Positions 30,374 to 40,163 of a DNA stretch of 40,163 nucleotides are shown here, in pieces. The first letter of the stretch is position 1. Each line of letters opens with the position of its first letter. This DNA comes from Rhizobium sp. PDO1-076 (lineage in GTDB: Bacteria; Pseudomonadota; Alphaproteobacteria; Rhizobiales; Rhizobiaceae). The DNA lies in contig NZ_AHZC01000277.1 in assembly GCF_000247475.1 (NCBI RefSeq), positions 1-40,163 of the forward strand, written 5' to 3'. The notes beneath the pieces are model-generated. The model ran no database searches. It was not told the origin of the DNA and saw only the letters and a list, made by a program, of their open reading frames with translations. The position numbers and the translations under genes were made by a program.

Positions 30374-31417
30374 TTATGCTCTTCGGCGATGTTTGGTCAG
30401 TCCACTCACCACATCCTGTGCGCTGATCGTGCCGATCACGGTGCCGTTGTCAACAACGCCGATCGTCCCAGGTTGACGCGCCAGCGCGTCGAGGATTTCG
30501 ACCAGGGGTGTCTGCGGCTTGGCTGTTGCAGTGACTGCGGCCGCTCCGTCCGTGATACCCGAATGCATGACGTCGGCTGCGGTCAGCATGTTGATCGGGT
30601 TCATGTTCTGCACGAAGTCGGCAACATACTGGTCGGCCGGGTTCTGGACGATCTGCTGCGGTGTGCCGCACTGGATGATCCGGCCGCTCTCCATGATGGC
30701 GATGCGGTTGCCGATGCGGAAGGCTTCGTCCAGATCGTGGCTGACGAAGAGAATGGTCTTCTTCAGGCGTGACTGGAATTCCAGCAGTTCGTCCTGCAGG
30801 CGGGTTCGGATCAGCGGATCGAGTGCCGAAAACGGCTCGTCCATCAGCAAGATCGGTGCCCCGGTGGCGAAGGCGCGGGCAAGCCCGACGCGCTGTTGCA
30901 TGCCGCCGGACAATTCGTTGACCTTGCGATCGGCCCATTTGGTCAGATTGACCAGTTCCAGCTGCTCGGCGACCATCGCCTTGCGTTCGGCATCGGGGAC
31001 GCCGGCAAGTTCGAGCCCGAAGCCGACATTGTCGGCGACGGTGCGCCAGGGCAGCAAGGCAAACTGCTGGAAGACCATCGAGACCGTGTGCATGCGTAGA
31101 TCGCGCAGCGATTTTGCCGAGGCCTTGTAGGGATCGACCTGTCCGGTCTCGGTGCGGACGCTGACATTGCCGCGGACGACCGGCGCAAGGCCGTTGACGG
31201 CGCGCAGAAGCGTCGATTTTCCGGATCCGGAAAGGCCCATCAGGACAAGGATCTCGCCCTCCTTGACCGCCAGGGATGCGCCAGCGACGCCAAGTACCAG
31301 GCCGGTTTCCGCACCGATTTCATCGCGGGTCTTGCCCTGGTCCACCAGGGCCAGCGCCTTGTGTGGCTGGTCGCCGAAGACAATGTCGACATTGCCGAAG
31401 ATTACTGCGTCGGTCAT
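30374..31417 (-). CDS. choV: Choline ABC transporter ATP-binding protein ChoV
   Basis: Cytoplasmic ATPase of the ChoXWV choline importer, 347 aa. Walker A is GLSGSGKST, Q-loop VFQQFALLPW, signature LSGGMQQRVGLARA, Walker B ILLMDEPFSALDPL, and switch histidine FVSHDLDEA. The N-terminal extension (VFGDQPHKALALVDQGKTRDE) is typical of the ProV/ChoV/OpuAA class. The C-terminal part has a CBS-like region (TIGVVDNGTVIGTISAQDV) that may sense ionic strength. The start overlaps choW by 4 nt (ATGA), so the two are coupled. Confidence 0.96.
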   Translation of the reverse strand: MTDAVIFGNVDIVFGDQPHKALALVDQGKTRDEIGAETGLVLGVAGASLAVKEGEILVLMGLSGSGKSTLLRAVNGLAPVVRGNVSVRTETGQVDPYKASAKSLRDLRMHTVSMVFQQFALLPWRTVADNVGFGLELAGVPDAERKAMVAEQLELVNLTKWADRKVNELSGGMQQRVGLARAFATGAPILLMDEPFSALDPLIRTRLQDELLEFQSRLKKTILFVSHDLDEAFRIGNRIAIMESGRIIQCGTPQQIVQNPADQYVADFVQNMNPINMLTAADVMHSGITDGAAAVTATAKPQTPLVEILDALARQPGTIGVVDNGTVIGTISAQDVVSGLTKHRRRA

Positions 31418-32277
31418 GCGCCATCCTCTGCGTTTTCAGTTCTGAACATCCGGTCGAGGATGATGGCGAGGATGACGATGCACAAACCGGCCTCGAAGCC
31501 TCTGGCGATATTGACGGTGTTCAGCGCCCGTACGACAGGCACGCCGAGCCCGCTTGCACCAACGAGGGCGGCGATCACGACCATGGACAGGGAGAGCATG
31601 ATCGTCTGGGTCAGGCCGGCCATGATCTGCGGCATGGCAAACGGCAGTTCGACCTTGCGCAGCACCTGGGTCGGTGTGGCACCGAAGGCCTGGGCCGCCT
31701 CGACCAGTGATGGCGGTGTGGAAATCACGCCGAGCCGTGTCAGGCGAATGGGGGCAGGGATAGCGAAGATCACCGTGGCGATCAGGCCCGGAACCATGCC
31801 GAGACCGAAGAGGATCAACGCGGGGATCAGGTAGACGAATGTCGGGATCGTCTGCATCAGGTCGAGCACGGGTCGCATGAAGGCATAGATCCAGGGACGG
31901 CGGGCGGCAGTGATGCCGAGCGGAACGCCGATCAGCATGCTGACGCCGGCTGACGCCAGCACCAGAGCCAGCGTTTCCGTCGTCTCTTTCCAGTAACCCT
32001 GGTTGTAGATCAGCAGCAGACCAAGACAGGTGAACGCGGCAATGCCGATCGAACGCCTGAGAAACCAGGAAAAGGCGGTAAACAGGAAGATGAGCGCAAA
32101 GGCGTTCGGCCATTGCAGCACGAACAGAAGCGCGTCGATCGCGGCGGACAAAACGGTGGAAAGCCAGTCGAAAAACCAGTCGGCATTTGCCGTCAGCCAG
32201 TCGACGAAGTCTTTCGCCCAGTTGCCCAGTCGCAATTTACCGCTGGAATCAATAAGCCATTCGGGGAGCCAATTCAC
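31414..32277 (-). CDS. choW: Choline ABC transporter permease ChoW
   Basis: Membrane subunit of the choline importer, 287 aa. The N-terminal segment (MNWLPEWLIDSSGKLRLGNW) is the cytoplasmic or periplasmic leader common in ProW/ChoW permeases, followed by about six helices. The ATPase-contact EAA loop reads EAAQAFGATPTQVLRKVELP, followed by FAMPQIMAGL. The gene overlaps choV by 4 nt and follows choX after a 76-nt gap holding a strong hairpin. Together with choX and choV it brings choline in for glycine betaine synthesis or use as carbon and nitrogen source. Confidence 0.95.
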   Translation of the reverse strand: MNWLPEWLIDSSGKLRLGNWAKDFVDWLTANADWFFDWLSTVLSAAIDALLFVLQWPNAFALIFLFTAFSWFLRRSIGIAAFTCLGLLLIYNQGYWKETTETLALVLASAGVSMLIGVPLGITAARRPWIYAFMRPVLDLMQTIPTFVYLIPALILFGLGMVPGLIATVIFAIPAPIRLTRLGVISTPPSLVEAAQAFGATPTQVLRKVELPFAMPQIMAGLTQTIMLSLSMVVIAALVGASGLGVPVVRALNTVNIARGFEAGLCIVILAIILDRMFRTENAEDGA

Positions 32278-32323
32278 GTGCTGACACCTGCCTGATCACA
32301 TAACACTATGGGCGGAAATGAAA

Positions 32324-32346
32324 GCGGGCCGGAGTGACCGGCCCGC
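32324..32346 (-). terminator. choX-choW intercistronic hairpin (attenuator or 3' stabiliser)
   Basis: Perfect 9-bp GC stem GCGGGCCGG (32324-32332) and CCGGCCCGC (32338-32346), 5-nt loop, located 7 nt after the choX stop. Minus-strand downstream sequence is TTTCATTTCC, a weak T tract. It may end part of transcription or protect choX mRNA, so that binding protein exceeds permease. Confidence 0.6.
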
Positions 32347-32353
32347 AGTTTCA

Positions 32354-33310
32354 TCAGAGGCCGAGGGCTGCCTTGACAGCCGGCAGCGCTTCGCCACCGT
32401 CGCGCGTGGTGACGCCAGCGAGCCAAGGCTCGACCGCGGCACCGTTTGCCTTCAGCCAGGTGGTTGCGGCGACCTGCGGATCCTCACCATCGTTGAGGAT
32501 CTTGCCCATGATCTCGTTTTCCATGTCGAGCGAGAATTTCAGGTTCGAGACGAACTTGCCGACATTCGGGCACTCGGTGACAAAGCCGGCGCGGGTGTTG
32601 GTGTAGACGGTCGCGCCGCCGAAGTTCGGGCCGAAGGTGCTGTCGCCGCCGGTCAGATAGGTCAGTTCGAAGGAGGAGTTCATCGGATGCGGAGCCCAGC
32701 CGAGGAAGACGACCGGTTCGCCGGCCTTTTCGGCGCGAGCGACCTGCGCCAGCATGCCCTGCTCGGAGGATTCGACTACTTCGAGGCCGCCCATGCCCAT
32801 TTCATTCTTTTCGATCAGGGTCATGACCAGACGGTTGCCGTCATTGCCGGGCTCGATACCGTAGATCTTGCCGTCCAGCGCATCCTTGTGCTTGCCGATG
32901 TCGGAGAAATCCTTGATGCCGAGTGCGGCGCCCTTGGCATTGGTGGCGAGCGTGTATTTTGCGCCTTCCAGGTTTGCGCCGAGCGATTCAACCGACTTGT
33001 CGTCGAGGTAGGGCTTCACGTCCTTTTCCTGAGCCGGCATCCAGTTGCCGAGGAAGACATCGATGTCCTTGTTCTTCAGCGACTGATAGGTGACCGGAAC
33101 GGAGAGAACGGTGATTTCCGGCTCGTAGCCGATGGCTTTCAGAACGACGGCCGCCGTTGCCGTGGTCGCGGTGATGTCGGTCCAGCCAACGTCGGAAAAG
33201 CGAACCTTTGTACAGCTATCCGGATCAGCGGCATTGGCCGGCGCCAGACCGAAAGCCATGACGGATACGGTTGCGGCAAGAGCGGTACGATAGAAATTGA
33301 GTTTGGTCAT
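32354..33310 (-). CDS. choX: Choline-binding periplasmic protein ChoX
   Basis: High-affinity choline receptor of the importer, 318 aa with a Sec signal peptide (MTKLNFYRTALAATVSVMAF, cleaved after ANA near residue 27). The residues I recall forming the choline site in the Sinorhizobium meliloti ChoX structure are all present at the same numbers: Trp43 and Asp45 (VGWTDI), Trp90 (GNWMPA), Tyr119 (AKYTLA), Asn156 (EPGNDGN) and Trp205 (LGWAPHPM). This makes choline, rather than betaine, the likely ligand. GGGAG lies about 8 nt before the ATG. First gene of choXWV; in relatives the operon is choline-induced. Confidence 0.97.
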   Translation of the reverse strand: MTKLNFYRTALAATVSVMAFGLAPANAADPDSCTKVRFSDVGWTDITATTATAAVVLKAIGYEPEITVLSVPVTYQSLKNKDIDVFLGNWMPAQEKDVKPYLDDKSVESLGANLEGAKYTLATNAKGAALGIKDFSDIGKHKDALDGKIYGIEPGNDGNRLVMTLIEKNEMGMGGLEVVESSEQGMLAQVARAEKAGEPVVFLGWAPHPMNSSFELTYLTGGDSTFGPNFGGATVYTNTRAGFVTECPNVGKFVSNLKFSLDMENEIMGKILNDGEDPQVAATTWLKANGAAVEPWLAGVTTRDGGEALPAVKAALGL

Positions 33311-33605
33311 GATCAGGCTCCCGTTTTTTATTAAGTTCCCAAGTCAACAGTTATTAAACCACAATTGCAAGCGGGCCCGTTGCGTTTGCGGCGCAGTGCC
33401 CTCCCTGTTTGCGACGCCAAAGGGTTTTCTTTGCCGAGGCATTTCAGCCATCTCCGCCGTCCGGTAAAAAACATCCGCTTCCTCGATTGCGATCAAGGTC
33501 GTTTCGGCGTTTCAATGGTGCGTCACTCGGGCCGTTCGCATGCGGTCGGTGGCAATCCTATCTAAGTCCATGAGGCCAATCGAAGTCCATGAAGGAAGAG
33601 TTCCT

Positions 33606-33992
33606 ATGAAGACCGTTTCCATTTTGATGTTGAGTGCTGTTCTTGCCGCGCCCATTTCTGCCGTGGCCGATGGCGATCCCGTTGCCGGCGCAAAGGCCTT
33701 CAAGGCCTGTCAGGCCTGTCACACCGCGACGGAGGCGAAAAACAAGGTCGGGCCAAGCCTTGTGGGCATTGTCGGACACCCTGTCGGCACAGTGTCGGGG
33801 TTCAAATATTCCAAGGCGATGATCGATTTCGGTGCGGGAAAGGTCTGGGATGAGCCTTTGCTGGCGGAATATCTGAAGGCGCCCAAGGCCCTGATCAAGG
33901 GGACCAAAATGGCGTTTGCCGGGGTCAAGGCCGATGAGGATGTTGCCAATATTATTGCCTATCTGAAGGATCCCGCCGCCGCCGGGCCGTAA
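33606..33992 (+). CDS. Small periplasmic class I cytochrome c
   Basis: A 128-aa c-type cytochrome. Signal peptide MKTVSILMLSAVLAAPISAV is cut near ADG. The mature part has one heme site, Cys35-Gln-Ala-Cys38-His39, the loop KVGPSLVGIVGHPVG after it, and a candidate axial Met102 (GTKMAFAGV), followed by the C-terminal helix DVANIIAYLKD. It fits cytochrome c2/c550-like electron carriers. ATG 33606 has a GGAAGAG site upstream and begins the signal peptide; 33540 would add a non-family leader. It lies 233 nt before the coiled-coil gene, so it is probably separate from that operon. The 295-nt divergent region from choX holds no other gene that I can see. Confidence 0.92.
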   Translation: MKTVSILMLSAVLAAPISAVADGDPVAGAKAFKACQACHTATEAKNKVGPSLVGIVGHPVGTVSGFKYSKAMIDFGAGKVWDEPLLAEYLKAPKALIKGTKMAFAGVKADEDVANIIAYLKDPAAAGP

Positions 33993-34225
33993 GGACCGCT
34001 CCGGCCGCTTGCGATCTCGGCCGCTGCGTTGCCGTCCCGTTTTGTGCTCTCGCCCCTTGTCCTGTGCGGGCGGCCATCCATATGCAGTGGGCTACAGGCA
34101 AAGAGCTGCTTCCAGGTGGAAACTTTAGCGGATGTGCAGTGCGATGCTTCCGCAACCTGTGAATTGCGTTATGGTCGCGAAATATCGGGACGGCACAGGC
34201 CGTCGGGGTCGAAAAGGGAGACGAC

Positions 34226-35314
34226 ATGGCTACGTTGCAATCGTTTGACAGCGAGATCGAGAAAACCCGCGCGATTGTCGCCGAAATGCGCGGCAAGATC
34301 GACCAGTCAGGGGCGCTACTCGACAGCTTCGCCAAAAGCGATGCCAAGATCTCCGATCAGAATTTCGACATCGAGAATGCCCGTATCGAGGACGTGATCA
34401 AGCAGCAGAAGACCATGGAGGCGAATATCGCCGACCTGATCATCGGGCTTGAGGACGCGACCAATGTCTTCGGCAGCGAATTCGAGAGCATGAAGAGTTT
34501 CACTGGCGTCGAGAAATTCATCGGCATCTTCTCGCGCCAGCGTTCGCAGCGCATGCGGACCGAACGGGTGCGCAACATGTCGCTGGCCGGCAATCTGCAG
34601 GACCTACTGTCAAAGTCGGATAGTATTGTCGGCATCCTGAAAGAGCAGCGGGCGGTGCTCGATACGCGCTACAAGAGTTCCGAGGCGAGCCTGATCGAAG
34701 TGATCGAGCGCCGCAAGGTAACGATCGACAACCTGGAAACGACGCAGAAGCGCATCGAGACACTTAATCCGATGTTGCTCGATATCGAAAACAAGATCGC
34801 TGCCTCGACCGAGCAGTCGCAGCGAACCGATCTGGACGCGGAGCGCTCGAAGCTTGCCACCGAATACAACCAGGCGCAGGCGCGGGAGCAGGAATTGCTG
34901 GCCGAAAGCCAGACGCTTGAACGCTACACGTCGATGTTCCAGACCTTCGTCGATTCGCTCAATAACCAGATCGCGGCGCAGAACACGCTGATCAACAAGC
35001 TGACCATCGATACCGAACAGCGCATCGTGCTCTACAAGGCGCTGGAGGATTCGTTGAAGACCGCCGCCCAGCAGGAGGTCGCGCACCGGATCAACACGCT
35101 CGGCAGTCAGGTTGATACGGCGGCGGAAGAGACAATGGCCGGGATCGGCGCTGCCGCGCAGCGCCATATCGGCGATCTGCTGGAGCTGCATGAAAAGAAC
35201 ATGCTGTCGACTCAGGACATCCAGCGCCGCAAGAAACTGGCCGACGACGCGTTCGCACGGCGGTTCCAGAGCGTGCTCGACAAGCACAATTCGGCCAACT
35301 ACGTGAAACCCTGA
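34226..35314 (+). CDS. Coiled-coil protein of unknown function (first gene of AAA+ cluster)
   Basis: I cannot name the family with confidence. The 362-aa product is almost wholly alpha-helical, without cysteine, tryptophan, signal peptide or membrane helix. Heptad-like stretches cover about 1-75 and 115-260 (for example ERRKVTIDNLETTQKRIETL and ERSKLATEYNQAQAREQELL). A less coiled segment near 80-110 reads SFTGVEKFIGIFSRQRSQRM. The layout loosely recalls TelA-type toxic-anion-resistance proteins, but I see no motif that proves it. GGGAG stands 5 nt before the ATG. Next gene starts 67 nt on, behind a hairpin. Likely a scaffold or filament-like partner of the ATPase encoded two genes later. I recall a DUF6384 family in such clusters but cannot check membership. 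Confidence 0.85.
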   Translation: MATLQSFDSEIEKTRAIVAEMRGKIDQSGALLDSFAKSDAKISDQNFDIENARIEDVIKQQKTMEANIADLIIGLEDATNVFGSEFESMKSFTGVEKFIGIFSRQRSQRMRTERVRNMSLAGNLQDLLSKSDSIVGILKEQRAVLDTRYKSSEASLIEVIERRKVTIDNLETTQKRIETLNPMLLDIENKIAASTEQSQRTDLDAERSKLATEYNQAQAREQELLAESQTLERYTSMFQTFVDSLNNQIAAQNTLINKLTIDTEQRIVLYKALEDSLKTAAQQEVAHRINTLGSQVDTAAEETMAGIGAAAQRHIGDLLELHEKNMLSTQDIQRRKKLADDAFARRFQSVLDKHNSANYVKP

Positions 35315-35348
35315 TGCCTGCGGTTTCGGTCTCTGGTGCCCGCGGGCG

Positions 35349-35380
35349 GGCGTGCCTTGCAGTAATGCTTGAGGCACGCC
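35349..35380 (+). promoter_or_regulatory. Hairpin pairing the ribosome-binding site of the next gene
   Basis: GGCGTGCCT (35349-35357) pairs with AGGCACGCC (35372-35380) across a 14-nt loop. The AGG of the likely ribosome-binding site GAGG (35371-35374) is inside the 3' arm, and the ATG follows at 35382. Translation of the 383-aa gene would need this stem opened, perhaps by ribosomes or by RNA processing. Confidence 0.55.
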
Positions 35381-35381
35381 G

Positions 35382-36533
35382 ATGAACGACGCGGCAAGCA
35401 ACACGGCGGTTGCGCAGTATTTTTCCACCATGGCGGCGGCGCTTGGCGGGCTGGATATCCATTTCGGCAATCCCGACGCGAGGCTGGCCGGCAAGGGACC
35501 TTCCGCGTCGGTGCTGCTGCCCTATGTCGACCGCCTGCGCAATTCGTTTGCCTGCTGGCAGAACCGCATCGGCTTTACCGAGCAATTCCGTGTGTCTCGG
35601 GCTGAAAGCGGATTTCCGGCTTTCCAGAATGTGCTGGAACTGGAAAATGACCGGGCCGGGGCGGACAAGCGGCTGGCGAGCATTCCGGCGGCGCGGTCGC
35701 TGCGCGAGGAGATGGTCGATTTCATCCTGCGGCAGAAGGAGTTTCCAACCGCATTGCAGACGCAGATTGCCGAGCGGCTTTATCTCGAGCAGATCGGCAA
35801 GGGGGAAATCTTCTCGCCGCTTGTCCTGCCGGAGACGATCGGCGTCACCGGCAATGCGACAAGCCGCAGGCCGAGCTATCTGGTCACCTGGGCAGCCTTT
35901 GACGGCACCACTACTTTGCCGATGGTCTATGTGGCAACGATCGAGGATTCGTCCGACAATGTCGTCAAGTTGCTGGTGACAGACGAGGGCGGGCTGAACG
36001 GTGACATGGACATTCCGCTGCCGGTGGGCGGGCTGCTCAACCCCGAGCTTGCACGTCTGTTCGATGAATTTGTCAGCCGCAACTCCGCCTATTCCCTGAC
36101 GCCGGCGACCATTGCGACCAATATGGACCGGGATTTTCCGACGCTGCATCCGAAATCGCTGCGGCGCATCGTTCTCGGCCCCTTCTATTCCTCTGGGATT
36201 ACGGAGAATGCCGGGCGGGTCAACGAGATCCTGTCCAGGGTTCGCAAGCCGGAAAACGCCTGGGTGATGACCTGGACGGAGCAGGAGGTGTTTTCGAAGC
36301 GTGAGCAGCCGGCGCAGAAGGGTTTTTTCTCGTCGGCGCCTGCCGTTCAGGAATTCCACATCGAAACGCATGACCTGGAAGCGGCGCGCATGGGCGTTTC
36401 TTTCTACGAGAAACATGCACTGGTGCCGCATGATGCCTATCAGGCACTTTATGCTTCCGGTGAGGCGAAGGAAATTTTCGGGAATTTCAAGGTGCATGTG
36501 ATTTCCGGCAACCAGATTGTGAGCGAGGTCTGA
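35382..36533 (+). CDS. Soluble protein of unknown function (383 aa, AAA+ cluster)
   Basis: I do not recognise the family. The 383-aa product has no signal peptide or membrane helix. The first 130 residues look helical (YVDRLRNSFACWQNRIGF, ERLYLEQIGKGEIFSPLVL). The middle looks alpha/beta with a strand-rich TTLPMVYVATIEDSSDNVVK and KSLRRIVLGPFYSSG. The C-terminal third has TWTEQEVFSKREQPAQKGFF and ends VHVISGNQIVSEV. One cysteine is near residue 58. Only 3 nt separate it from the ATPase gene, so joint expression is almost certain. It may be an adaptor or substrate of the ATPase. A hairpin overlaps its ribosome-binding site. Confidence 0.85.
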   Translation: MNDAASNTAVAQYFSTMAAALGGLDIHFGNPDARLAGKGPSASVLLPYVDRLRNSFACWQNRIGFTEQFRVSRAESGFPAFQNVLELENDRAGADKRLASIPAARSLREEMVDFILRQKEFPTALQTQIAERLYLEQIGKGEIFSPLVLPETIGVTGNATSRRPSYLVTWAAFDGTTTLPMVYVATIEDSSDNVVKLLVTDEGGLNGDMDIPLPVGGLLNPELARLFDEFVSRNSAYSLTPATIATNMDRDFPTLHPKSLRRIVLGPFYSSGITENAGRVNEILSRVRKPENAWVMTWTEQEVFSKREQPAQKGFFSSAPAVQEFHIETHDLEAARMGVSFYEKHALVPHDAYQALYASGEAKEIFGNFKVHVISGNQIVSEV

Positions 36534-36536
36534 GAG

Positions 36537-38453
36537 ATGAGCGAATTGAGCGCCGGCCTGACCACGCTGCATGAGGCCAATATCGCCAGGCATCTGATCG
36601 TCGCGCAGGGACTGATCACCCGCGTGATCGTGCTGGATGCCGGGGAGGGGGCATCCTCGGCGCCGATCGCCGGTACCAACCGGCGCTTCGTCTCGACGGT
36701 TTCCACCGGTTCGGTGCGGCGGACCCGCGAGGTCGAACTGGCCAAGACCATTCAGGCGGCAGGCAGCGATCCGCTTCTGACGCCGGCGCAACATACGGTT
36801 CTCTACCGCGTCCGGCGCGGGGCGCAGATTGCGCTGGCGATTGCCGATGTCTTTGCCCGACAGACCGAACTGGAAAGCCTGCAGGCGCGCAATCTGACGG
36901 CGCCGCTACAGGGCGAGGATGCGGCACGCTTCAAGGCGCTGCTGTCGTCCTCGGCCTATGTCGCCACATTCGCTTTTGCCGCTTATCTGCTGTCGACGGT
37001 TTCCGGCGAGAGTGCGGAAGCAAACGGCATGCGCGAGCCGGATTTTCTCTTCGATACGGCGCAGGACGGCCTGAAAAGCATGGTCGCGGGGCTTGATGCC
37101 GTGCTGACCGGCGCGGGTGACGATGCGACGGTGATCGGCCGTTGCCGCGCTTTCGCGCAGGTGGCCCTTGATGGGCTCCTCTCACGCAAGGCGCGGTTCG
37201 AACATCTTGGCATATTCGAGACCAGCCATATCCGCGTCGATCAGGACGACTTCACGCTGGACGGTTTTGATGCGGCACCGGGGCCGAAACGCAAACCTCT
37301 GTCCATGACCTTCAAGAAGCCGGAAGAGATCATCGGCAACCACATCGCCAAATATCAGGCGCTGAAGCTTGCCAAGATGCTGATGGCCTACGATTTCGAC
37401 CGGCAGATGAACCCGTTTGTCGAACTCGGCGGCTTCCTATTTACCTTCATCGGCGACGGCATGCCGGGAACCGGCAAGACGATCCTGATCCAGATGCTGG
37501 CCGGTATGCTGAACGACTACTGCCAGGTGGCGGGTTATACCTTTCACTACGAGAATTTCGGTGTCGACCAGATCTCGTCCTACCAGGGCAAGTCGGGGCA
37601 AAATGCCAAGAGCTTCGTCAACAATGTGCTGAACCCGCGTGTCATCGGCTTCGGCACGGTCGACGATGTCGATCAGGTGACCGCCAAGCGCTCGGATGAC
37701 CGGGCATCGTCCGGCCAGCATGAGGTGACGGCAGTGCTGATGGAGAGCTTTGCCGGTGCCTCGACGGTCGTGCGGGGCAATTCCACCTTCGGCATGTTCT
37801 CAAACTATCCGGAAAATGTCGACGATGCGCTGCGCCAGCGCGCCGGTGCCCGCTGGCTGGTCGACGGACCGCAGTCGCGGGAGGATTACATCGACATATT
37901 CTCGCTGCTGATCGGGAAGAACCATGACATCGCGCTTGGCGAGCACGCGTTGTTTGCCGGCCAGGAGATCACCAAGGCGGTGTCGCGGTCCTATGGCGAG
38001 CACGACCGGCCGAAGGAGGACGGGTTGGTCGCGGTCTGGGAACGTTATGAGAAGGCGCATGGCCGGATTGTTACGCTTGCCGATGTCGGTGCCTATCTGC
38101 ACGAGATCAAGCTTGCCGAACCCCGCTTTACCGGGCGGGCGATCAAGAACATCACGGACGCTGTGAAGATGCGGGCGATGGATGTTGAACTGCCGGATGA
38201 CTGGTTCGTTGCTCCCGCCGCGTTCATGCACAAGCCGTATGACGAGAAGAAAGCGATGATCGCCGAGCTGCGTGGCCCAGTGACCATGGAAATGATCTGC
38301 CAAGAGATCAATCGTTACGCCGACAGCGAATTCCGCTATGCCGACAAGTCGGACGAGGCGGCGGTCAACGAGATCGTGCGGCGCGAAAGGCAGCGGGAGC
38401 GGGCAATCGGCGAGATCGAGACGATGAAGCGGGAAGGGCGCTGGGATACATGA
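36537..38453 (+). CDS. AAA+ ATPase of the five-gene cluster
   Basis: A 638-aa protein with a single AAA+ module after a long N-terminal region of about 300 residues without recognised motif. Walker A is GDGMPGTGKTILIQ with Lys314 and Thr315. The Walker B position reads VIGFGTVDDVD with Asp376-Asp377, where the usual second residue is Glu. Sensor 1 and arginine-finger region reads STFGMFSNYPENVDDALRQR. A C-terminal lid and a charged end (RRERQRERAIGEIETMKREG) follow. No membrane helix is seen, so it acts in the cytoplasm, probably as a hexameric remodeler of its cluster partners. Its stop overlaps the next start by 4 nt (ATGA). The target is unknown. Confidence 0.92.
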   Translation: MSELSAGLTTLHEANIARHLIVAQGLITRVIVLDAGEGASSAPIAGTNRRFVSTVSTGSVRRTREVELAKTIQAAGSDPLLTPAQHTVLYRVRRGAQIALAIADVFARQTELESLQARNLTAPLQGEDAARFKALLSSSAYVATFAFAAYLLSTVSGESAEANGMREPDFLFDTAQDGLKSMVAGLDAVLTGAGDDATVIGRCRAFAQVALDGLLSRKARFEHLGIFETSHIRVDQDDFTLDGFDAAPGPKRKPLSMTFKKPEEIIGNHIAKYQALKLAKMLMAYDFDRQMNPFVELGGFLFTFIGDGMPGTGKTILIQMLAGMLNDYCQVAGYTFHYENFGVDQISSYQGKSGQNAKSFVNNVLNPRVIGFGTVDDVDQVTAKRSDDRASSGQHEVTAVLMESFAGASTVVRGNSTFGMFSNYPENVDDALRQRAGARWLVDGPQSREDYIDIFSLLIGKNHDIALGEHALFAGQEITKAVSRSYGEHDRPKEDGLVAVWERYEKAHGRIVTLADVGAYLHEIKLAEPRFTGRAIKNITDAVKMRAMDVELPDDWFVAPAAFMHKPYDEKKAMIAELRGPVTMEMICQEINRYADSEFRYADKSDEAAVNEIVRRERQRERAIGEIETMKREGRWDT

Positions 38454-39748
38454 ACCGCCTGCTCGAAGCTGAACTGATCTATGGTCGTTTGCTGCCGATT
38501 ACTGAGCCGCATCTGATCGCGCGTTACAACAAGGCGCTGTCCGGCTTCGGGTTGCCGGAAACCAAACTGAGCGAATTCGACATCGACATAACGGGGTTTT
38601 CGCCGCAGGTCGCTGCCGAACTCAATGATCCCGACTATCTTGATCCGGGCAAGGTCAATCGGCGGTTCATCATCATGACACCGGAGCAGGACAGCCTGCC
38701 GGTGGTGCATACCAGCTTTTCCAATACCGCCGGTCTGATGCATGAATTCTATGCCGCCAATGCCAAGGCGATCAATGCGGTTACGATCCGCGATGCGATC
38801 TATGGGGAGATCGAAGACAGCGTTACGGAAGTGCGCACGCTCGAAGACCTGCTGTTGATCAACGAAGTGCGTTTTCGGGTGATGTCGGCCGAGGATCTGC
38901 TCGGCAAGGCCGGCGAATTGCGCCAGCTGTGCGACCAGTTGACCACGAGCAACGATGCCTGGCGTGATGACTCGTTGCTCAATCGTATGGTGGACCTGGC
39001 CAAGCAGACCGGCGACATCCGGCAGAACGTGCTGGTGCCGGATAAGGTGATTTTCCGCCACGATGCCTTCTGGGCCAATCATTTCGGCGGGGTCTTCGTG
39101 TTTGTCGATGACAAGATCACCACGGTGATCTGCGATCCGTCGGCGCCGGGCTTTCGCCGCTCCCGGCCATGGCAGGTGAGCTATATCCCGATCACCGACA
39201 AGGCGCAGATCTTCGATTTTCTGGCCAAGAGCGGACGGATCGAACTGCCACGCGCAAGCTGGGTGGACGCATCCGGGCTTCTGGCGCATCGGGCCGAGAT
39301 GGCGGTCCTTTCTGTCGCTGCCGGTCAGTCTCCGGTGCCGGATCTTTCCCGCATCGATCCGGTCTGGCTGCAGACCTTCCTGCATCGCAATGCCCGGGCC
39401 GTTGCAGAGGACGGCGTCTATCCCCTGCTGCAGGAGGCTCTGAGAAGCCTTGCCAGGAGCGGCAGTCTGCGCATGGCGGACGTGGCCCCCGAACACCGGC
39501 TGTGGCTGGTCCGGGCCGATCCGGCCCATGCAGACCAATGGCTGACCAACCGACTGATTTCGCGGCTGACGCCAGCCGATTTCGTCTCCCGTTTTGTCTT
39601 CGACAAGCAGGGCTTCTACCAGGCCTATGACGGTTTTTCCGATGGCTTGCGCGAATACGTTGTATCAAGGCTGACAGAGACCTATCTGCGAGACAAAGCG
39701 GCCTTTCGAAAACGCCTTTACGGCATAGGAGACGACAACAATGCTTGA
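38450..39748 (+). CDS. Protein of unknown function (432 aa, AAA+ cluster)
   Basis: A 432-aa soluble-looking protein beginning MNRLLEAELIYGRLLPITEP, with FIIMTPEQDSLPVVHTSFSN, FRHDAFWANHFGGVFVFVDD and a helical C-terminal half (MADVAPEHRLWLVRADPAHA, RLTETYLRDKAAFRKRLYG). I recall a DUF6638 family of this size beside such ATPases in Rhizobiales, but cannot verify the match. The His/Asp/Trp-rich stretch near residues 203-215 would be a place to look for a catalytic or metal site; this is only a guess. It overlaps the ATPase gene by 4 nt and the next gene by 8 nt. Confidence 0.86.
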   Translation: MNRLLEAELIYGRLLPITEPHLIARYNKALSGFGLPETKLSEFDIDITGFSPQVAAELNDPDYLDPGKVNRRFIIMTPEQDSLPVVHTSFSNTAGLMHEFYAANAKAINAVTIRDAIYGEIEDSVTEVRTLEDLLLINEVRFRVMSAEDLLGKAGELRQLCDQLTTSNDAWRDDSLLNRMVDLAKQTGDIRQNVLVPDKVIFRHDAFWANHFGGVFVFVDDKITTVICDPSAPGFRRSRPWQVSYIPITDKAQIFDFLAKSGRIELPRASWVDASGLLAHRAEMAVLSVAAGQSPVPDLSRIDPVWLQTFLHRNARAVAEDGVYPLLQEALRSLARSGSLRMADVAPEHRLWLVRADPAHADQWLTNRLISRLTPADFVSRFVFDKQGFYQAYDGFSDGLREYVVSRLTETYLRDKAAFRKRLYGIGDDNNA

Positions 39749-40163
39749 TCCGATCATCGCGTTCTTTCAGCGCGTCTTCGCCGCCATCGGTCGCGGAATC
39801 GGGATTGCGATCGCCGGATTGTTGTGGCCATTTCTGGCAGCGCATGGCTGGTATCAGCGCCGGAGCTGGCTTGTTCGCGGGCCGGTGCTGGCAATTGTCC
39901 TGCTGCTCATCGTCTTCTACGGACTTTTGATCTGGCGTACCCAAGTCTGGTATGGCTTCGACCCCGGCTTCGTGCAGGCCTACAAACTCGAAGAGCGCAC
40001 CGTTGCGGCAGGCGTGGCGCTGCCCGACCAGCCGAACCGTTGCCAGAATTCGTCGCTGGTAACGATCGCTGCCGATCTGACCGACATGAACGTCAACCAG
40101 AATGTCTGGATTTCCTCGACGCTGCTCTACAAGACGGGACTGGTTCGGGGTGGACTGGGACAA
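39741..40163 (+). CDS. Membrane-anchored protein, DUF2333-like (cut by window end)
   Basis: The first 141 codons of a gene that continues beyond the window. ATG 39741 follows GGAG by 9 nt and overlaps the previous stop by 8 nt. The N terminus has an amphipathic or hydrophobic stretch (about 12-34) and then a clear membrane helix at about 47-65 (GPVLAIVLLLIVFYGLLIW). A probably periplasmic part follows, with WYGFDPGFVQAYKLEERTVA and DMNVNQNVWISSTLLYKTG. The last segment resembles the DUF2333 family as I remember it, which has no known function. It would link the cytoplasmic ATPase unit to the membrane. Confidence 0.82.
   Translation, partial: MLDPIIAFFQRVFAAIGRGIGIAIAGLLWPFLAAHGWYQRRSWLVRGPVLAIVLLLIVFYGLLIWRTQVWYGFDPGFVQAYKLEERTVAAGVALPDQPNRCQNSSLVTIAADLTDMNVNQNVWISSTLLYKTGLVRGGLGQ

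Follow-up and report, generated by a model that had tools for sequence, protein, structure and literature searches.

The end of contig NZ_AHZC01000277.1 of Rhizobium sp. PDO1-076 carries a run of five genes, designated g1 to g5, one of which (g3) encodes an AAA ATPase. This raises the question of whether the genes constitute one functional unit and, if so, what the ATPase acts on. The window analyzed here is the entire contig (C165; 40,163 nucleotides, nt) of a 5.5 Mb assembly in 441 contigs. Calling of open reading frames (ORFs) revealed five ORFs from position 34226 to the contig end, which falls inside g5. All five lie on the plus strand and start with ATG. A gap of 67 nt separates g1 from g2 and one of 3 nt g2 from g3, while g3 and g4 overlap by 4 nt and g4 and g5 by 8 nt, exactly as the original prediction had described them. 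The comparisons below identify g1 to g4 as a co-inherited core that is combined with an exchangeable membrane protein, and they point to the coiled-coil protein g1 as a possible substrate of the ATPase.

In a sample of 299 Pseudomonadota genomes, g3 was detected in 20, and DUF6638, the family of g4, in the same 20. In each of them (20/20), g1, g3, and DUF6638 resided within 7 kb on one contig and in the same block, which supports the earlier proposal that the AAA ATPase co-occurs with its neighbors as one unit. g2 was located beside g3 in 17/17 of the neighborhoods read from these genomes, once by hidden Markov model (HMM) only; the 17 include the window and leave out genomes G075, G214, and G217. 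g1 was present in 24 of the 299 genomes, namely the 20 with g3 plus four with divergent orphan copies. In a family sample of 171 genomes, g3 occurred in 100, and all 100 also encoded g1. Among family genomes without g3, g1 was matched by a single full-length copy, whose genome is 68% complete, by four divergent genes, and by two weak coil hits. The latter, in G593 and G691 (of 107 family g1 matches), lie in frames of more than 1,600 residues and were not counted as g1.

The system is unevenly distributed. In the window's own genus, three 99%-complete genomes gave no match to g3, which, together with the frequencies of 100/171 in the family and 20/299 in the phylum, is at odds with the conserved housekeeping role suggested before. 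The closest named relative among the matches listed, from which very near records may be left out, was Rhizobium sp. 18065 with a 96% identical ATPase. Proteins related to g3 also exist in Vibrio, Psychromonas, Neptuniibacter, and Spartinivicinus. A search with the Vibrio ATPase retrieved 3,481 related proteins at E 0.001, which may include other AAA proteins and of which the best 120 were listed. No g3 was found in a class sample around a gammaproteobacterial genome (0/274), a sample without any positive.

Gene order was derived from 102 fetched neighborhoods, comprising six from genus relatives, 16 obtained via a DUF6638 search, and the best 80 of an ATPase scan; some of them represent the same genome twice (e.g., L014 and L055). 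The order g1-g2-g3-g4-membrane gene was called in 99/102 neighborhoods and is thus not a product of chance. Of the remaining three, L049 has a diverged g2 that was found by HMM, L106 contains an intact ATPase ORF, and L128 starts 110 nt before the ATPase match. The nature of the last gene varied between lineages. It encodes a DUF2333 protein in rhizobial loci and a DUF1523-like protein in 11/11 Rhodobacterales-type loci (L039–L049; confirmed by Pfam for L039), and the two families show no detectable relation (1.2% probability). The label Rhodobacterales-type refers to Roseovarius and Sulfitobacter ATPases that are 75–80% identical to that of L039; at least one genome of this type (G070) belongs to another class. 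The Vibrio vulnificus plasmid record NZ_CP015514.1 (0.93 Mb) carries g1-g2-g3-g4 with a 38% identical ATPase, and neither DUF2333 nor DUF1523 was found within the 29.9 kb read. It is the one read of four Vibrio plasmid records (0.88–0.94 Mb) that hold the ATPase; mfd and secA genes lie nearby on it. The system therefore consists of a four-gene core and an exchangeable membrane protein, and not of the five genes originally assumed.

The adjacency of g1 and DUF2333 would also fit a model in which these two proteins form the functional pair, with g2-g3-g4 as accessory regulator subject to gain and loss. DUF2333 is far more widespread than g3 (68/299 versus 20/299 genomes), and it adjoins g1 in four genomes lacking g3 and g4. 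However, the core is accompanied by DUF1523 in 11 Rhodobacterales-type loci and by neither family in the Vibrio region, so that DUF2333 is no fixed part of it. We consider a g1-DUF2333 pair rather unlikely as the basis of the system.

The ATPase itself matched PF00004 (AAA) with 38.4 bits at a cut-off of 21.2. Motifs were counted in 38 sequences, that is, 37 of one alignment plus that of Vibrio, and Walker A, Walker B, and the arginine-finger region were recovered in 37–38 of them; the arginine-finger role of residues 429–439 is presumed from the classical AAA layout. The solved sequences closest to the g3 profile were the i-AAA protease (E 0.00032), proteasomal Rpt2 (E 0.02), and katanin (E 0.077). 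By these sequence features, g3 belongs to the classical AAA clade. HMMER placed the SYQGKS motif of g3 opposite IYVG in the i-AAA protease and KYLG in Rpt2, which represent the pore loops of these proteins, and Tyr349 of the motif was invariant in 37/37 sequences. Because the alignment sets this aromatic loop against the pore loops of ATPases known to thread their substrates, g3 is predicted to do the same. The Walker B motif (IDDID-like) carries an Asp at the catalytic position in 38/38 sequences, which is unusual for the clade, as most AAA proteins use a Glu there. g3 shares with i-AAA/FtsH proteases, proteasomal Rpt, and katanin the place of the pore loop, but differs from them in having DD instead of the usual DE in Walker B, in an N-terminal part without Pfam match, and in the lack of a detectable peptidase domain, PF00004 being the only match in the Pfam scan.

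The most conspicuous feature of g1 is the block SLKTAxQQxxAHxINxxG at residues 276–293. It was conserved in 101/101 g1 genes of the fetched neighborhoods, in the 120/120 best database matches, and in 47/47 further loci; these sets overlap, and their selection favored closeness to either canonical g1 or the ATPase. The database search returned 2,248 proteins related to g1 at E 0.001, which may include other coiled-coil proteins and of which the best 120 were listed. Invariant residues occupy 12/18 positions of the block compared to 98/362 over the whole protein, and the best-conserved 18-residue windows (at 262–266) hold 13. The g1 of Vibrio, 27% identical over residues 1–230 and 48% over 276–362, has kept the whole block. 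The AlphaFold2 model of g1 (mean predicted local distance difference test score, pLDDT, of 64.5) shows long helices at residues 120–193, 197–282, and 289–355, and residues 276–316 form one of its segments with a pLDDT below 50. Low pLDDT combined with high conservation of residues 276–293 would be expected if this segment adopts its fold upon binding a partner. As judged from the sequence, the block is likely the docking site of the ATPase.

Genomes that have retained g1 without the ATPase allow a comparison. G063, G127, G273, and G285 contain a divergent g1, located next to DUF2333 in all four cases, and show no match to g3 or g4 anywhere in the genome; g2, g3, and g4 were not found in three 18-kb orphan neighborhoods (L165–L167). 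A fifth orphan genome, G711, carries a divergent g1 and no g3 match. In all five genomes, the g1 profile match stops at residue 275. According to the alignment, the block is deleted in L165 and L166 and replaced by a different sequence in L167, and SLKTA occurred in 0/8 orphan loci from four genomes. Past the block, orphan g1 still aligns weakly (22–31%). The g1 block is thus lost together with the ATPase and the DUF6638 match. Two observations limit what this correlation can show: The orphans come from two genera and represent one or two events only, and the rest of orphan g1 has diverged as well, so that drift after the loss could explain the missing block.

Our preferred, though tentative, explanation is that the ATPase threads and disassembles g1 coiled-coil assemblies, likely next to the inner membrane. 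We infer that g3 would form a ring, probably with g2 and g4 as adaptors, engage g1 via the conserved block, and pull on it with the pore-loop tyrosine. ATP-driven disassembly would recycle the g1 scaffold, while the rest of the g1 protein would link up with the envelope partner; this link is suggested because g1 and DUF2333 stay adjacent where the ATPase is gone. More doubtful is a fully specified version, in which a four-protein AAA complex that uses SLKTAxQQxxAHxINxxG as a latch on a filament would drive a scaffold beneath the inner membrane, coupled to interchangeable envelope proteins, and would be unrelated in sequence to ESCRT/Vps4, PSP, and SNARE. If the mechanism is true, it would add a further way in which coiled-coil scaffolds are recycled in bacteria, and DUF6638, and possibly DUF2333 and DUF1523, would gain a functional context. 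Searches of the open-licence literature for DUF6638, DUF2333, DUF1523, family names, and accessions yielded no description of the system. Legume symbionts (Sinorhizobium and Mesorhizobium) and Rhodobacterales thus share a co-inherited four-gene ATPase system for which the literature searched describes no role. An entry point is offered by the ATPase itself, a single candidate client, and the 18 residues that are lost along with the ATPase.

The working logic would resemble that of Vps4 on ESCRT-III or NSF on SNAREs, with no detectable sequence homology between g1 and ESCRT-III. NSF, likewise an AAA ATPase, relies on adaptors to unwind helical bundles, and t-SNAREs top the second-look structural alignment of the g1 model, whose mean pLDDT is given above. 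Foldseek returned one match to this low-confidence model under E 0.001, a chemoreceptor model (6e-4; TM 0.29), followed by generic helical bundles, and PspA/ESCRT-III proteins were not among the matches listed. Vps4-ESCRT-III and the bacterial PspA/Snf7-AAA gene neighborhoods, as described in the consulted part of PMC11237479, likewise combine a classical AAA gene with a long helical protein and membrane proteins nearby, and ATP-driven remodeling is proposed there as here. Unlike in these systems, however, g1 has no detectable Snf7/PspA homology: Pfam gave no match, and the comparison of the g1 profile with PDB sequences gave none at E 1 except SCM3 (E 0.27). Homology to PspA was rejected on these profile results and on hhalign with two PspA sequences (2.7% probability). 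Likewise, no MIT domain was found on g3, Pfam scans of two members showing a sequence signal for AAA-type domains alone, and the consulted part of PMC11237479 shows neither a counterpart of g2 or DUF6638 nor the present system itself.

g2 and g4 suggest a different division of labor, in which the ATPase, as a chaperone or assembly factor, would serve to load or mature g2 or g4, and g1 would be a scaffold and not the substrate. Both proteins accompany the ATPase, g4 occurring in the same 20/299 genomes and g2 beside g3 in all 17 neighborhoods read. g4 matched PF20343 (DUF6638) with 240.6 bits at a cut-off of 27. The C-terminal half of g2 displays a strand-helix order like that of T-fold proteins, and its best, albeit weak, matches are T-fold families; a T-fold-like g2 ring could, for example, be the client. 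The fold search with g2 returned nothing below E 0.001 among PDB and viral structures. In the orphans, the missing g1 block would then reflect a lost contact with g2 or g4. We regard this assembly role as unlikely, yet as one to be taken seriously. For g1 and g2, neither an above-cut-off Pfam/NCBIfam model nor a PADLOC model was found.

A further explanation, that the locus is a defense or mobile-element module and not a cellular machine, is bound up with the junction between g3 and g4. The tight overlap in the window had been taken as a mark of stable complexes. Among 101 loci, however, g3 and g4 were called as overlapping in nine (one probably a start-codon artefact) and were more than 200 nt apart in 66, with a spacing of 200 nt or less in 35; g4 and g5 overlapped in 40/91. 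The inserts at the g3/g4 junction of the 101 loci, seen in loci between L013 and L134, comprised helix-turn-helix plus ParE-type toxin-antitoxin genes in 20, a DUF559 endonuclease-like ORF in 27, ribbon-helix-helix genes in five, and repeats or other genes in 14. The junction is an insertion hotspot, and the window (38450–38453) represents an empty site. A "phd" label at the junction is, by eye, probably a rhizobial repeat around DUF559 inserts and was not counted as toxin-antitoxin. These inserts, the patchy presence of the system, its four Vibrio copies on plasmid records, and a weak TRIP13 match of g3 in a defense library (14.9 bits) are compatible with a defense module. Yet the inserts are variable and absent from the window, most rhizobial loci are syntenic with choline-transport genes, no model of the defense library matched g1, g2, g4, or g5, and g3 had no match in 50,697 phage records, in line with the absence of phage signs noted earlier. 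A defense or mobile function therefore appears improbable.

The helical nature of g1 also brings TelA to mind, and the locus could accordingly be a TelA-type stress-response or anion-resistance system. TelA (PF05816) is of similar length and helical, and its C-terminal helices are loosely like those of g1 by eye. However, g1 had no Pfam match to TelA, and profile comparisons gave probabilities of 1.7% and 2.4%, compared to 0.6% for reversed g1 and 100% for true relatives. No TelA match was found in the window's own genome; the wider TelA scan covered 150 genomes and not the sample of 299. TelA identity of g1 was thus rejected, and we consider a TelA-type system very improbable.

To return to the putative disassembly of g1, the topology of the membrane protein bears on what the ATPase could contact. 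The g5 piece in the window corresponds to residues 1–134 of the nearest relative, and the start of contig C60 to residues 142–369. The full-length relative (L014) matched PF10095 (DUF2333) with 75 bits at a cut-off of 22; the remainder on C60 scored 38 bits for this family, and the window piece alone gave no match. A Pfam MFS_4 match of the N-terminus was below the cut-off. The last g5 residues in the window (40143–40163) differ from the relative, probably because of an assembly error at the contig end. Hydropathy of the L014 protein peaked at 2.5 at residue 47, with one strong span at approximately residues 45–66 following arginines, and 30 sequences showed at least 90% conservation of two Cys beyond the span. 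The span, the preceding arginines, and the two Cys suggest a cytoplasmic N-terminus, a single span, and a large domain outside the cytoplasm. In this topology, the ATPase could reach the short N-terminal stretch alone, and the idea that the last protein fixes the membrane site was not supported.

Profile comparisons revealed no homology between g2 and g4, g2 and g5, g4 and g5, g1 and g5, or DUF1523 and DUF2333 (0.1–1.2% probability). Two genomes from a single genus, which is not in the window's class, carry DUF2333 near PspA (L180:7215–10405, also L151), and in L180 an ORF resembling PspC by eye is located between the two. This proximity is a hint at an envelope-stress link of DUF2333. A general Psp link was dismissed, as PspA lay within approximately 1.5 kb in only 2/30 phylum-sample loci, both from one genus. 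A duf2333 gene also occurs in a Pseudomonas type VI locus, where the consulted part of PMC5256989 terms it uncharacterised.

Features of the g1–g5 locus in the window.
Feature	Position	Strand	Description
g1	34226–35314	+	362 aa, all-helical coiled-coil protein
g1 block SLKTAxQQxxAHxINxxG	35051–35104	+	residues 276–293; predicted docking/engagement element
g2	35382–36533	+	383 aa, soluble; N-terminal half helical, C-terminal half mixed, weak T-fold resemblance
g3	36537–38453	+	638 aa, classical AAA ATPase by sequence; N-terminal part of ~300 residues
g3 Walker A GDGMPGTGKT	37452–37481	+	residues 306–315; pattern in 38/38 sequences
g3 predicted pore loop 1 SYQGKSGQN	37578–37604	+	residues 348–356; YQGKSxQN in 36/38
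g3 Walker B GFGTVDDVDQ	37647–37676	+	residues 371–380; pattern in 38/38 sequences
g3 predicted arginine-finger region DDALRQRAGAR	37821–37853	+	residues 429–439; pattern in 37/38
g4	38450–39748	+	432 aa, DUF6638 protein
g5, N-terminal part	39741–40163	+	DUF2333 membrane protein cut by contig end; 369 aa in nearest relative
g5 predicted transmembrane span	39873–39938	+	~residues 45–66, RR just before

No RNA families were detected in the window at gathering scores, and a promoter and terminator scan of positions 33900–35420 revealed nothing exceeding shuffled sequences. Upstream of the operon, the window contains choXWV choline transporter genes and a cytochrome c gene (30374–33992), as do most rhizobial loci; these neighbors do not occur in Rhodobacterales-type loci. 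A Sinorhizobium meliloti record has a thymidine kinase gene where the cytochrome gene would be. The Sinorhizobium gene SMc02733, putatively situated near choXWV, harbors a fragment from a ChvI DNA-binding screen and may belong to this operon.

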